The translations under genes were made by a program, and so were the position numbers. From positions 1 through 32,131 of IMG/VR virus record IMGVR_UViG_3300034374_000467: a stretch of 32,131 nucleotides of DNA, one strand, 5' to 3'. Positions 25,020 to 29,995 of this stretch are shown here, in pieces (position 1 is the stretch's first letter; each line of letters starts with the position of its first letter). Under the pieces are notes generated by a model. That model had not been told where the DNA came from. It saw only the letters and a program-made list of their open reading frames with translations, and ran no database searches. Source of the stretch: a virus.

Positions 25020-26690
25020 TTAAAAAGGTAAATCTGTTACTACTGTAAAGCCTTTAGATCCATCGATATGTTTATATGCGCCACCATGATTAAAATCTGG
25101 AGCTATAGCAAATTTTCCCTGTTTGCCATTCTCTTTACGCTTTACTTTCTGGACATGGACAGTAACTGCATCAGATCCATATTTGGTTTTATGACCTAGC
25201 TCTCTGTAGACAGTCAGACATCCATAGGATTTATTAAAGAAGTCAGATGATCCAGATATGTCGTATGGAGTAGGTACTTTAAACTCATTCTGAGTGTTGA
25301 GCTCCATCTTTCTAGGATGAGCTATTAGAAAAAGGTGAGTATTAGTCTGCTGTACAAACTGAGTGATCTCTGATAGGATCTTAGACACATAGTTTAGATC
25401 TCGCTGTGCTGAGTGATCTAGCATGTTATATGGATCGATCACACAGATATTAATTCCTTTCTGGAGTACGAGCTCTCTAAACTTATTTAGGATCGCCTTG
25501 AGTGTTAGGTTCTCTAGATCTATTTTAACAAAATGAAAATGATCCTCTATAAAGGCTTTAGATCTGTTCAGATGATCTACACTACAGTCTGTCTCATTGA
25601 GCTTATTAGCGATACGCTTTATATGTCCCTCAAAAGGAAATGACTCAGGAGCAAAAAAAGCAGTTTTAAAATCATGCATTGTAGCCATATTGACTGCGAT
25701 CTGATCGATTACATCTGACTTACCAGAGTTAGGTATGCCTGTTACTACTGTCCACTCTCCCAGAGCTATTTTAAAGAAGTCATCACTCTCTGCTAAACCT
25801 AGTGAGTAGTTTTTGATCCCATGCTCAGAATAGTTAAGTACGCTAGACCAGATATCATTTATATTTAATACACCCTCGATAGGAAAGTTTTTAGCCTCTT
25901 TAAGACACTTTCTCAGAGCTTCTGGGCCTTGACTACCTAAAAGATCATTAGCATCCTTAAAATCGCTTATTTCGACATATTTGCATCGATGTCTACCTAA
26001 ACGCCTAGCGAGCTCATTTCTGAGAGACATGCCAGCCTCATCATTATCAGTGAATAAGATCACCTCATCCATATCAGCAAAGTACCTCCAGCAGTTATCC
26101 AGATACTTTAGATTTTGATTTCCTTTAGATGCGCCATTAGGTACAGACACCACTGAGTAGATCCCAGCCTCATGTAGCGACAGTGCATCCATCTCTCCCT
26201 CTACGATGTAGCAGTACTTTGAGTCTTTGATATTATCGATCCCATAAAATATCAGCTCAGCTCCAGAGACCATTTTAAAGTTTTTCTCTGCATCCCTGTA
26301 TTTGACATTGACCAGCTGACCATCTCTGTAGTAGTTGAAATTGATCGCCTTTCTCTTTTTCTCTACCTGTGGAAACCACTCTACTGACTCAGTGATCCCC
26401 CAATTAGCTACAGTAGCCTCAGAGATCCCTCTCTTTTTAAAATACGCCAGAGTACGCTCTGATAACTCTACACCATGAGCATCTGGGATGATATACTCCT
26501 CTTTAGGCTTTAGCTTGACATTACCAGACCAGCCACAGTTGTGACAGTTGTATACGCCTTTATCTAGATTAACTGATAGGCATTTATCTTTTTTGTTTTT
26601 TCGAGTGTGAGAGCATTTAGGGCATGTGGTTTTTTGTTCGATAGCATTAGACTTAATATCAATGCCCAGCTCTGTAAATAATTCAGTCAT
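25020..26690 (-). CDS. Primase-helicase (T7 gp4-like domain order)
   Basis: 556 residues with zinc-finger, TOPRIM and helicase domains. Zinc: CPKC (23-26) and CHNC (49-52). TOPRIM primase core: YIVEGEMDAL (E164) and ILFTDNDEAG (D215, D217). RecA/DnaB-like helicase: Walker A GIPNSGKS (318-325), INICVIDPYNML (Walker B D419) and HLFLIAHPRK. It would unwind DNA and make primers at the phage fork. It ends TVVTDLPF, close to the DDLPF end of the SSB-like protein. Overlaps the upstream nuclease gene by ATGA. Confidence 0.93.
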   Translation of the reverse strand: MTELFTELGIDIKSNAIEQKTTCPKCSHTRKNKKDKCLSVNLDKGVYNCHNCGWSGNVKLKPKEEYIIPDAHGVELSERTLAYFKKRGISEATVANWGITESVEWFPQVEKKRKAINFNYYRDGQLVNVKYRDAEKNFKMVSGAELIFYGIDNIKDSKYCYIVEGEMDALSLHEAGIYSVVSVPNGASKGNQNLKYLDNCWRYFADMDEVILFTDNDEAGMSLRNELARRLGRHRCKYVEISDFKDANDLLGSQGPEALRKCLKEAKNFPIEGVLNINDIWSSVLNYSEHGIKNYSLGLAESDDFFKIALGEWTVVTGIPNSGKSDVIDQIAVNMATMHDFKTAFFAPESFPFEGHIKRIANKLNETDCSVDHLNRSKAFIEDHFHFVKIDLENLTLKAILNKFRELVLQKGINICVIDPYNMLDHSAQRDLNYVSKILSEITQFVQQTNTHLFLIAHPRKMELNTQNEFKVPTPYDISGSSDFFNKSYGCLTVYRELGHKTKYGSDAVTVHVQKVKRKENGKQGKFAIAPDFNHGGAYKHIDGSKGFTVVTDLPF

Positions 26691-27142
26691 GTTAATATTC
26701 TTTTACTTAGGTTAATTAGGTCACTGTGCTTCACCATCACAGCGATGTCTTTTCGTTTATTTCGTCTACGAGGCGTGTATAGAGACACCTCATGTACTGC
26801 TGGTATGTTTGGGATCTTAATGCGACACCATTCGAGCAGATCTAATCGATCTACGATCACCCATAGATCATAAATATAGAAAGCAATAGCATCAGCTTCG
26901 CCATAGATCCATCCTTTTTTGCCTACTACATTCTGAAACTCGATCCAGTTGTAGTCTCCTTTAGGGCCTTTTACATCGTATTTAATACCCTCATGCTCCA
27001 GATCCCAGTGCTCATAGATATCCTGTTCCTTAGTTGCCCAGATGATCTCGCCTCCTAGTTTCTGAGCAAAGCGCTTCTCATACTCCTTGCCTATGATCAG
27101 ATCCTGATCCTTTTTCGCTTTAATCTTTGGATCTAAACTCAT
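26687..27142 (-). CDS. PD-(D/E)XK nuclease-like protein
   Basis: 151 residues. IIGKEYEKRFAQKLGGEII gives the leading acidic helix (E20/E22), HWDLEHEGIKYDVKGPKGD gives the D...DVK core (D47, D56, K58), followed by WIEFQNV and GEADAIAFYIYDLWVIVD. This order fits a small restriction-like nuclease fold as found in phage replication operons, possibly a resolvase. It starts inside the initiator gene (23-nt overlap) and couples to primase-helicase. The family is inferred from motif spacing only. Confidence 0.6.
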   Translation of the reverse strand: MSLDPKIKAKKDQDLIIGKEYEKRFAQKLGGEIIWATKEQDIYEHWDLEHEGIKYDVKGPKGDYNWIEFQNVVGKKGWIYGEADAIAFYIYDLWVIVDRLDLLEWCRIKIPNIPAVHEVSLYTPRRRNKRKDIAVMVKHSDLINLSKRILT

Positions 27143-27812
27143 ATTTGTCGATATCTGGAGCTAAAGTCTCTGCGAATATGTCTATAAATCTGATCCCCTC
27201 TTTATTGAGCTGTGTGAGCTTTCTAAGTGATCTTAAGTTCTTAGACCAAAAAGGATCTTTAAATGCCTTAGATAAAATCACATACACATGACGAGGTGAG
27301 TAGCCATAATTTTTATCTAGCTTCTCTAATTCCTTTACCCAGATCAGATGTGTCTTTTTGTCTTTTGGTTTATACCTCTCTGGAAAAAGAGGTAAAATGT
27401 GCCTGTAGGCTTCTTTCAGTTTTTCAGGCACTATATATTCTTCTTTATTATTAGTAGTACTACTAGTATTATATACTGGGACATTTTTGTCTACCCCCCC
27501 TAGACATTTTTGTCCACCCCTATGGACATTTTTGTCTACCCCTTTTACAGTAATAAATCTACCAGAAACACGCTTATCATCATATTTGTACTCTACCTTG
27601 ATGTGTGAGGCGTTTTTAAGCTCTGTGATCCATCTTGAGATCGTCTTTGGACTTACCTTATAGATATTAGCAAAATAATCATTAGAGGCCCAGCAAAATC
27701 CCTCCTGATTGGTCAGAGCTGTGATCTCAGCATAGAATAATTTAGCATTAGGGGACAGGCGATCATCATACCTAACATCAGCTGGTATGAAAGCCCAGTA
27801 GTTTCTATCCAT
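27120..27812 (-). CDS. HTH replication initiator with iterons in the gene
   Basis: 230 residues. The N-terminal winged-helix part (FIPADVRYDDRLSPNAKLFYAEITAL, then FCWASNDYFANIYKVSPKTISRWITELKNA) is the HTH_36-type domain of phage replication initiators. The linker 91-125 is encoded by three iteron copies and an AT-rich stretch. The C-terminal part (AYRHILPLFPERYKPKDKKTHLIWVKELEKL, DPFWSKNLRSLRKL) is helical and like DnaD/initiator tails. The layout, DNA-binding domain then iterons then C-domain, is that of lambda O. It probably binds the repeats and loads the helicase encoded two genes away. Confidence 0.8.
   Translation of the reverse strand: MDRNYWAFIPADVRYDDRLSPNAKLFYAEITALTNQEGFCWASNDYFANIYKVSPKTISRWITELKNASHIKVEYKYDDKRVSGRFITVKGVDKNVHRGGQKCLGGVDKNVPVYNTSSTTNNKEEYIVPEKLKEAYRHILPLFPERYKPKDKKTHLIWVKELEKLDKNYGYSPRHVYVILSKAFKDPFWSKNLRSLRKLTQLNKEGIRFIDIFAETLAPDIDKYEFRSKD
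27421..27544. other. Candidate replication origin: three iterons plus AT-rich region
   Basis: GACATTTTTGTC occurs at 27480-27491, 27503-27514 and 27525-27536, spaced 23 and 22 bp, each followed by (T/C)ACCCC. Each is itself a near palindrome. Next to them 27421-27477 is strongly AT-rich and holds the 14-bp palindrome TAGTAGTACTACTA (27452-27465). The spacing is about two helical turns, as for binding of initiator on one face. The middle copy is read in a different reading frame from the outer two, so the repeat is kept at the DNA level. Confidence 0.72.
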
Positions 27813-27821
27813 GTATTTGAG

Positions 27822-28070
27822 TTATTCGATCATGGACTTAATCTCCTGACAAAATTCACTGATCTCATCGAATACCTTTTTAAAATCTTTAGCTGGGATC
27901 TTATCCTCTCCAAAGATCGTAAACAGGCACTCTACTAATAGATCAAATTCGACACGAGTCATTTTACCATAGTAGACAAATTTTGGATTATCATCCATAG
28001 TAGAATTAGTGCGCCATACTTTGTCATCGATCTCGCTGTAGTAGACTTTTGTGTATTTGCTATAGCTCAT
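27822..28070 (-). CDS. Small unknown protein, early operon
   Basis: 82 residues. YSKYTKVYYSEIDDKVWRTNSTMDDNPKFVYYGKM is beta-rich and the rest (EFDLLVECLFTIFGEDKIPAKDFKKVFDEISEFCQEI) is helical. No family recognised. It overlaps the VRR-NUC gene by 11 nt and ends 9 nt before the initiator start, so it belongs to the replication operon. Confidence 0.6.
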   Translation of the reverse strand: MSYSKYTKVYYSEIDDKVWRTNSTMDDNPKFVYYGKMTRVEFDLLVECLFTIFGEDKIPAKDFKKVFDEISEFCQEIKSMIE

Positions 28071-29200: not shown

Positions 29201-29512
29201 CTAGAAAGGTAAATCGTCAGTATCTAGAGTATTGTCACTAGCTACCTCAGCTGTAGATAGAGGAGCTGCTTTAGGATATGGACTATCCTGTGTCTGAGCA
29301 TTGTCTGGCTTCCATGTGTTAAGCACAGCATAAGGCTTGCCAGATTTGCCTCTTAGGATGTCTACATTGATCCACCCTCTGTAGTTTTTGTGCTTAGCTA
29401 AAAAAGCTGTAAACAGCTCAGCGTTAAATCCCATTTTTGCGATTACAAAGTCTGGGCCATTTTGAGGTACATCTACTGATACTCCCTCTGGAAAAATTTT
29501 CTCTTGTTGCAT
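29201..29512 (-). CDS. SSB-like protein with DDLPF tail
   Basis: 103 residues. Core segments such as FVIAKMGFNAELFTAFLAKHKNYRGWINVDILRGKSGKPYAVLNTWKP suggest a compact beta-domain, followed by an unstructured Thr/Ser/Pro linker and the end LDTDDLPF. Bacterial SSB proteins end DDIPF, and this tip recruits repair partners. The core does not clearly match an OB fold by eye, so a small non-OB ssDNA-binding or accessory protein is possible. It lies between the annealing protein and the exonuclease (3-nt gaps). Confidence 0.6.
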   Translation of the reverse strand: MQQEKIFPEGVSVDVPQNGPDFVIAKMGFNAELFTAFLAKHKNYRGWINVDILRGKSGKPYAVLNTWKPDNAQTQDSPYPKAAPLSTAEVASDNTLDTDDLPF

Positions 29513-29515
29513 GAG

Positions 29516-29995
29516 TTAAAAATTAAATTTAGATGTGATTACTTCACGATATTGGCGCTTCATTTTATACATGCTCAGCACCTTTTGAGCCTGTTCTTTA
29601 GTTCCTTTTAGGACTTTCTGGAGCTGTGCCTCAGTAAGCCATTGATCATTTTGCTGCTGATGGATCGCATTAGCTACCTCCTCAGCGCTTGCTATAGAGG
29701 TATCGATCCCTATGCCTAAGTAGCCTAAAGCTCGCCCTAGTGCAGAGGTAAATCCATTCTCTAAAAAACTTGTCTGATTAATATGAGAGCTGTCTCGCTT
29801 CTCATGAGCATGAGCAGAGGCCATCACTGTACCCTCTGGATTTTTGATCGAGATCTTAAAGATCCCCTCATCATTGTCTACTTTGACTAGAGTCTCCTCA
29901 ATAGTCCAATTTTTAAAAGCTGCATCAGTTCGAAAATGAATCAAACGCTCATTCACTGTGATGTAGTCTTTACCCTTAATCTGGATTTTTTTCAT
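29516..29995 (-). CDS. Single-strand annealing protein (ERF/Sak-like)
   Basis: 159 residues. YITVNERLIHFRTDAAFKNWTIEETLVKVDNDEGIFKISIKNPEGTVMASAHAHE followed by NQTSFLENGFTSALGRALGYLGIG (the conserved tSA.GRAL..lG block at 83-95) matches ERF/Rad52-like phage annealing proteins. The C-terminal part (WLTEAQLQKVLKGTKEQAQKVLSMYKMKRQY) is helical and basic. It would anneal strands resected by the RecE-like nuclease. It overlaps the regulator gene by ATGA. Confidence 0.65.
   Translation of the reverse strand: MKKIQIKGKDYITVNERLIHFRTDAAFKNWTIEETLVKVDNDEGIFKISIKNPEGTVMASAHAHEKRDSSHINQTSFLENGFTSALGRALGYLGIGIDTSIASAEEVANAIHQQQNDQWLTEAQLQKVLKGTKEQAQKVLSMYKMKRQYREVITSKFNF

Follow-up and report, generated by a model that had tools for sequence, protein, structure and literature searches.

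The window analysed here, i.e., the whole 32,131-bp viral record, very probably carries a theta-type phage origin inside its own initiator gene, where binding by the winged helix-turn-helix (wHTH) domain would be followed by melting, helicase loading, and the start of replication. Three exact copies of the 12-bp iteron GACATTTTTGTC were found within this gene, with start-to-start distances of 23 and then 22 bp, and neither further copies nor a second iteron cluster were detected elsewhere in the record. Read along the gene strand, the iteron is GACAAAAATGTC, a palindrome with the arms GACA and TGTC around an AAAA core. In gene direction, iteron 1 (27525–27536, minus strand) and iteron 3 (27480–27491, minus strand) are translated as DKNV, whereas iteron 2 (27503–27514, minus strand) lies in another frame and is translated as GQKC. 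A sequence-only reading of the window had claimed three repeats spaced 23 and 22 bp apart inside an HTH initiator gene, with the middle copy in a different frame; both points were borne out, and exact positions could be assigned.

The same reading had held that selection on the protein does not explain the repeats, which agrees with two results, i.e., the variation of frames among relatives (see below) and a comparison with local codon shuffles of the window gene, in which the observed three-copy score of 24/24 was not reached in any of 5000 shuffles (maximum 20). In relatives with ~80% protein identity, no synonymous changes were present across the 57-bp iteron block (19 codons) vs. 15–22 of 92 codons upstream (16–24%) and 29–33 of 120 codons downstream (24–28%), although these relatives represent few independent lineages, so that this contrast alone is modest evidence. 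The spacers between the iterons (27492–27502 and 27515–27524 in the window, and the corresponding linkers of relatives) often contain runs of G or of C beside TA (GGGGGTA, TACCCC); 70% of 196 spacers had such a run of at least 3, and their mean GC was 55%, though the neighbouring AT bins ranged from 0.6 to 0.84. On the plus strand, half-sites of two adjacent iterons also pair into a hairpin (27511–27528) that resembles a terminator and is followed by T5; it may be a secondary consequence of the repeats being palindromic.

The initiator gene (27120–27812, minus strand) encodes 230 amino acids arranged as a wHTH domain, a disordered linker, and a helical C-domain according to Pfam, PHROG, and AlphaFold. 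The protein matched Pfam HTH_36 (PF13730) at residues 18–71 (53.5 bits, E-value 2e-14, cut-off 25) and the PHROG annotation "replication initiation protein" (E-value 8e-25). In the AlphaFold2 model, which was calculated with an input of 23 full-length relatives and reached a pTM of 0.45, the wHTH domain (residues ~7–90; 27543–27794, minus strand) had a mean pLDDT of 65–85 per 10-residue block over residues 11–90. It includes the recognition helix (residues 55–67, PKTISRWITELKN; 27612–27650, minus strand), in which K56, T57, and R60 co-vary with iteron bases. The linker (residues 92–124; 27441–27539, minus strand) is predicted to be disordered (pLDDT < 50), and its DNA contains all three iterons as well as most of the adjoining AT-rich stretch. 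Being placed in the DNA of a disordered linker, the iterons would therefore be free of protein-level constraint and readable in any frame. The helical C-domain (residues 130–222; 27147–27425, minus strand) was modelled with a pLDDT of ~90 and is proposed to dock the helicase, its type tracking that of the downstream helicase. Structure comparison with Foldseek and VIA-align placed PDB entries 4pql, 4pt7, and 5kbj at the head of the fold list for the wHTH domain (Z 8.6–9.5), all three of which, judging from their entry titles, we take to be RepA_N plasmid initiators. The best of them, 4pql, aligned over 88 residues at 2.9 Å (VIA-align Z 9.5), while generic wHTH proteins reached up to Z 9.2, i.e., the RepA_N matches exceeded the best generic wHTH proteins by less than 1 Z unit. 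Pfam returned HTH_36 alone and no RepA_N domain for the window initiator, and no significant relative above noise was found by sequence among PDB chains.

Relatives were collected by a pattern scan for two copies of the 12-mer, which yielded at least 120 viral stretches and 61 genome contigs. Many of these loci are HTH initiator ORFs in which the repeat is read as DKNV, GQKC, or TKMS, and such ORFs occurred in contigs assigned to Bacillota, Bacteroidota, Acidobacteriota, and Spirochaetota, several of which are metagenome bins. As the pattern scan selects for the repeat, three additional scans were performed with alignments of the HTH domain only to obtain an iteron-blind set. The motif GACA...TGTC was absent from 30 of 37 iteron-blind relatives, but on inspection different arms were found at the same place (AAAG-CTTT, CAAG-CTTG, GAAG-CTTC, TTAACA-TGTTAA, and TTCCGA-TCGGAA, all with an A4 core). 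Hence, a loss of the repeats in relatives, which a test for GACA...TGTC only had first suggested, was rejected. The best repeat with a lag of 20–25 bp started at codon 80–119 after the HTH start in 68 of 71 non-redundant iteron-blind ORFs, 49 of the 71 ORFs beat their local codon shuffles (p ≤ 0.02), and palindromes with an A-core numbered 70 in the iteron-blind ORFs (25.5 expected). In the full set of 132 ORFs, a spacing of 22 bp was seen 31 times, one of 23 bp 29 times, and one of 24 bp 30 times, and others were rare; iteron copies used more than one reading frame in 83 of 110 good sets. No clear iteron set was found in 13 of the 132 relatives, and some other sets were degenerate. A HTH_36-type protein of the initiator family without a clear iteron set in its linker was also noted on the Aureibacter tunicatorum plasmid pAT5 (L445, Bacteroidota). 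Related phages that keep the amino acids while losing the DNA repeats had been named beforehand as the outcome speaking against an origin; the opposite was found: the repeats retain their position, period, and A-core, and what varies is the frame, the amino acids, and even the sequence of the arms.

For the covariation analysis, each HTH column was scored against each arm position (350 pairs) using 55 iteron-blind ORFs and 200 clade-weighted permutations. The top three of the 350 pairs were T57 with arm position 5, T57 with position 4, and R60 with position 4 (0/200 permutations each); T57 and R60 both lie within the recognition helix of the AlphaFold model. At arm position 4, C was present in 13 of 18 iteron-blind ORFs with R60, A in 17 of 17 with K60, G in 2 of 2 with E60, and a base other than C in 36 of 37 with a residue other than R60. 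With pattern-selected loci added, the larger set showed R60 together with C in 62 of 66 cases, and residue 56 followed arm position 2, where G accompanied R/K and A accompanied V. A tree from ~77 residues, with residues 54–63 left out, placed R/non-R changes on 23 branches and C/non-C changes on 22, with both on 18; because this tree is poorly resolved, the 18 coincident branches overstate the number of independent events and are an upper estimate. Given this covariation between arms and helix, the iterons are probably read by the HTH of the initiator itself, and in the simplest reading each initiator's HTH domain would bind the iterons in its own gene.

The AT-rich stretch (27421–27479), which follows the last iteron when read in the direction of the gene, is proposed to be the DNA unwinding element based on its AT content of 76%, measured over 27421–27478, and on a family-wide rise in AT. 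An AT-rich stretch adjoining the repeats, as described in the sequence-only reading, is thus real, but it is only moderately unusual by itself: the window as a whole has 61% AT, and 1.7% of equal-length windows are as AT-rich. In 110 iteron sets, AT increased from 0.62 to 0.77 and 0.84 over 40 bp past the last iteron, with no rise before the first. The 14-bp palindrome that had been reported within this stretch is present (TAGTAGTACTACTA, 27452–27465) but was not conserved, being disrupted in the 80%-identical relatives L127–L130, and is probably incidental. Part of the AT-rich DNA at 27440–27478, as in the linkers of relatives, is made of trinucleotides (AAT AAT ACA / ACT AGT AGT) read as N/T/S codons; these resemble the trinucleotide ssDNA-binding elements beside other origins, with codon usage as an alternative source. 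No GC-skew switch was observed at 27.5 kb, which is a weak test because nearly all genes run on one strand and the skew is monotonous. A search of the whole record for DnaA boxes gave a single match away from the iterons, below chance expectation, and no cluster.

Downstream in gene direction, a Toprim + DnaB-like primase-helicase is encoded at 25020–26690 (minus strand; Pfam Toprim_2 and DnaB_C, PHROG DNA primase/helicase, E-value 8e-93) and is the enzyme proposed for loading onto the melted origin. C-domains of the window type were followed by a Toprim/DnaB-like primase-helicase at 16 of 18 non-redundant loci vs. 4 of 114 others, C-domains of the type found in Cellulophaga phage phi39:1 occurred with DnaB in 4 of 4 cases, and, among loci with a detected partner, those of the phage 77 type were mostly accompanied by a DnaC-like loader. 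This linkage between C-domain and helicase suggests that the C-domain may dock the helicase machinery. The wHTH domain, as a dimer or higher oligomer, would bind the three palindromic iterons (GACA-AAAA-TGTC), which are separated by two helical turns; this would melt the AT-rich DNA that follows immediately in the gene, and the C-domain would recruit the phage primase-helicase. Elongation is proposed to be done by the host polymerase because none of the replication-region genes searched was recognised as a phage DNA polymerase. Four genes of the replication region had no Pfam family above the cut-off (26687–27142, 27822–28070, 29201–29512, and 29516–29995); the last matched a PHROG of unknown function (E-value 6e-31) and the other three matched no PHROG. 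The host is likely a member of the Bacteroidota, since the terminase is nearest to those of Bacteroides phages (~40% identity) and a relative of the initiator occurs in phage phi39:1.

As an explanation of the repeats, a by-product of selection for a repeated DKNV-like peptide, or mere chance, would fit the same frame being used in two of the three copies, but this explanation is already refuted and retains a negligible probability given the varying frame in relatives, the predicted disorder of the linker, the iteron block free of synonymous change among relatives, the result of the codon shuffles, and the covariation of the arms with the recognition helix. It is unlikely that the initiator binds the iterons as an internal operator, blocking its own transcription or translation, while replication starts elsewhere. 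Many plasmid initiators autoregulate, and a covariation would demonstrate recognition, not the purpose of recognition; a weak promoter-like match on the gene strand also overlaps the iterons (27493–27465, 9/12) but is no better than chance. An operator is harder to reconcile with sites that lie ~275 bp into the gene and always between the two domains, with an AT-rich stretch on one side only throughout the family, with the lack of a second iteron cluster in the record, and with relatives of the same anatomy having been published as origins (PMC5499656, PMC6316719, PMC5703833).

That the repeats are a plasmid-like partition or copy-control (handcuffing) site bound by the initiator, with the real origin being another sequence nearby, is very improbable. 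Plasmid iteron arrays double as incompatibility loci, and together with the only moderate AT content of the window flank this would favour such a site. The conserved one-sided AT-rich element, the lack of any other cluster of GACATTTTTGTC iterons or DnaA boxes in the record, and the precedents of pPR9 (PMC5703833) and 80alpha (PMC5499656) argue against it. The interpretation as an iteron-type origin inside the initiator gene, as originally put forward, is supported by the relatives, the covariation with the recognition helix, and the one-sided step in AT, all of which make it the probable function of the locus.

Exchange of the HTH domain together with its iterons was apparent in two pairs of sequences. 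Up to the start of the initiator gene, the DNA of Staphylococcus phages 77 and 80alpha is 98.6% identical, and from ~nt 390 of the gene on it is 97% identical, with no alignable DNA in between; the C-domains of their initiators are 98% identical over 109 amino acids and the N-domains are unrelated. Contigs L211 and L203 are mostly 77–97% identical around the gene and 96% identical in the C-domain, and their identity drops to 33–67% between ~+90 and +300; within this divergent block, R60 is paired with GACA iterons in one contig and K60 with AAAG iterons in the other. As judged from these alignments, both pairs show a swap of the HTH-plus-iteron block as a single cassette. Since the DNA-reading helix and its target adjoin, both could be exchanged in one recombination event. 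It appears fairly likely that the embedded origin is a self-matched specificity cassette, in which helix and iterons are inherited and exchanged as one unit a few hundred bp long, with a few helix residues sufficing to predict the iteron (for arm position 4, R60 to C, K60 to A, and E60 to G; for arm position 2, R/K56 to G and V56 to A).

With the window, Bacteroidota-type phages would join the class of embedded-origin replicons, and the same 12-bp iteron is tied to initiators whose contigs were assigned to four or more phyla. The parallel variation of iteron arms and recognition helix should make the specificity of an initiator predictable and testable by single substitutions. Exchange of helix and iterons as one block would give a concrete reason for placing an origin inside the initiator gene; if the cassette reading is true, it would explain embedded origins across phages and plasmids of several bacterial phyla as well as how related phages escape each other's replication control. 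In practical terms, origins of uncultured phages might be found from sequence alone, and small replicons could be obtained for Bacteroidota. Most deserving of further study are the recognition code and the cassette exchange.

That an origin can lie inside an initiator gene is already known from lambda O and, in phages and plasmids of Firmicutes, from SPP1 gene 38, 80alpha ORF20, and pSK41 rep. In lambda, the DNA-binding domain, the iterons, the AT-rich stretch, and the C-domain lie in one gene (O, with ori-lambda), and P and the host DnaB are employed for replication. The window initiator gene has the same layout, but the iterons of lambda O differ, and the window protein matches "replication initiation O-like" PHROG families only weakly in its HTH region (phrog_678, E-value 3e-8; phrog_391, E-value 6e-8). 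In the Bacillus phage SPP1, direct repeats and an AT-rich DUE lie within the initiator gene at oriL, and the initiator gp38 binds the repeats (PMC6316719); SPP1 carries its origin twice and encodes loader and helicase separately, whereas the window phage has one repeat cluster and a primase-helicase. A deletion of ORF20 in 80alpha was not complemented in trans (PMC5499656), and a rep_origin is annotated within gp20 in the phage record; gp20 itself gave no match to the HTH profile of the window-initiator family.

Among plasmids, the N-terminal domain of pSK41 Rep binds boxes inside rep, its ori-coded linker is dispensable, and its C-terminal domain binds primase (PMC5703833). In the chimeric pPR9, a pfam13730 (HTH_36) N-domain replaces the N-domain and origin of pSK41, and the rep region supports autonomous replication (PMC5703833); among published functional work, this comes closest to supporting an HTH_36 N-domain with origin function. 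These RepA_N initiators resemble the window initiator in their wHTH N-domain, the boxes inside rep, the ori-coded linker, and the separate C-terminal domain, and the pSK41 Rep box shares an A+T tract with the window iteron; they differ in being plasmid-borne, and the partner of the pSK41 C-terminal domain is DnaG, while that of the window C-domain is probably the primase-helicase. The rep gene of pUSA03 (L443:101-1060), which looks like a RepA_N initiator gene, carries four 23-bp repeats mid-gene and thus shares the frame-shifting period. The initiator of this record did not match the HTH profile, though a review names pUSA03 as a hybrid type (PMC5703833).

Further phage relatives were found by tblastn among the HTH replication proteins of Lactococcus phages BK5-T / P335 and Lactobacillus phage c5, which like the window carry linker iterons with a period of 22–24 bp (marked as a repeat_region within the gene in the BK5-T record) but differ in their arms (TACA...TGTA, TTAACA...TGTTAA) and C-domains. 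Gp41 of the Bacteroidota phage isolate phi39:1 is 56% identical to the window protein over residues 5–81 and has the linker iterons GACA-AAAT-TGTC; unlike in the window, it has another C-domain and is followed by a DnaB-like helicase, with no primase-helicase there. A partial literature search returned no embedded iteron origin in Bacteroidota phages; the window as a Bacteroidota-type member, together with the cross-phylum family, the recognition code, and the swapping of cassettes, looks new beside these known systems.
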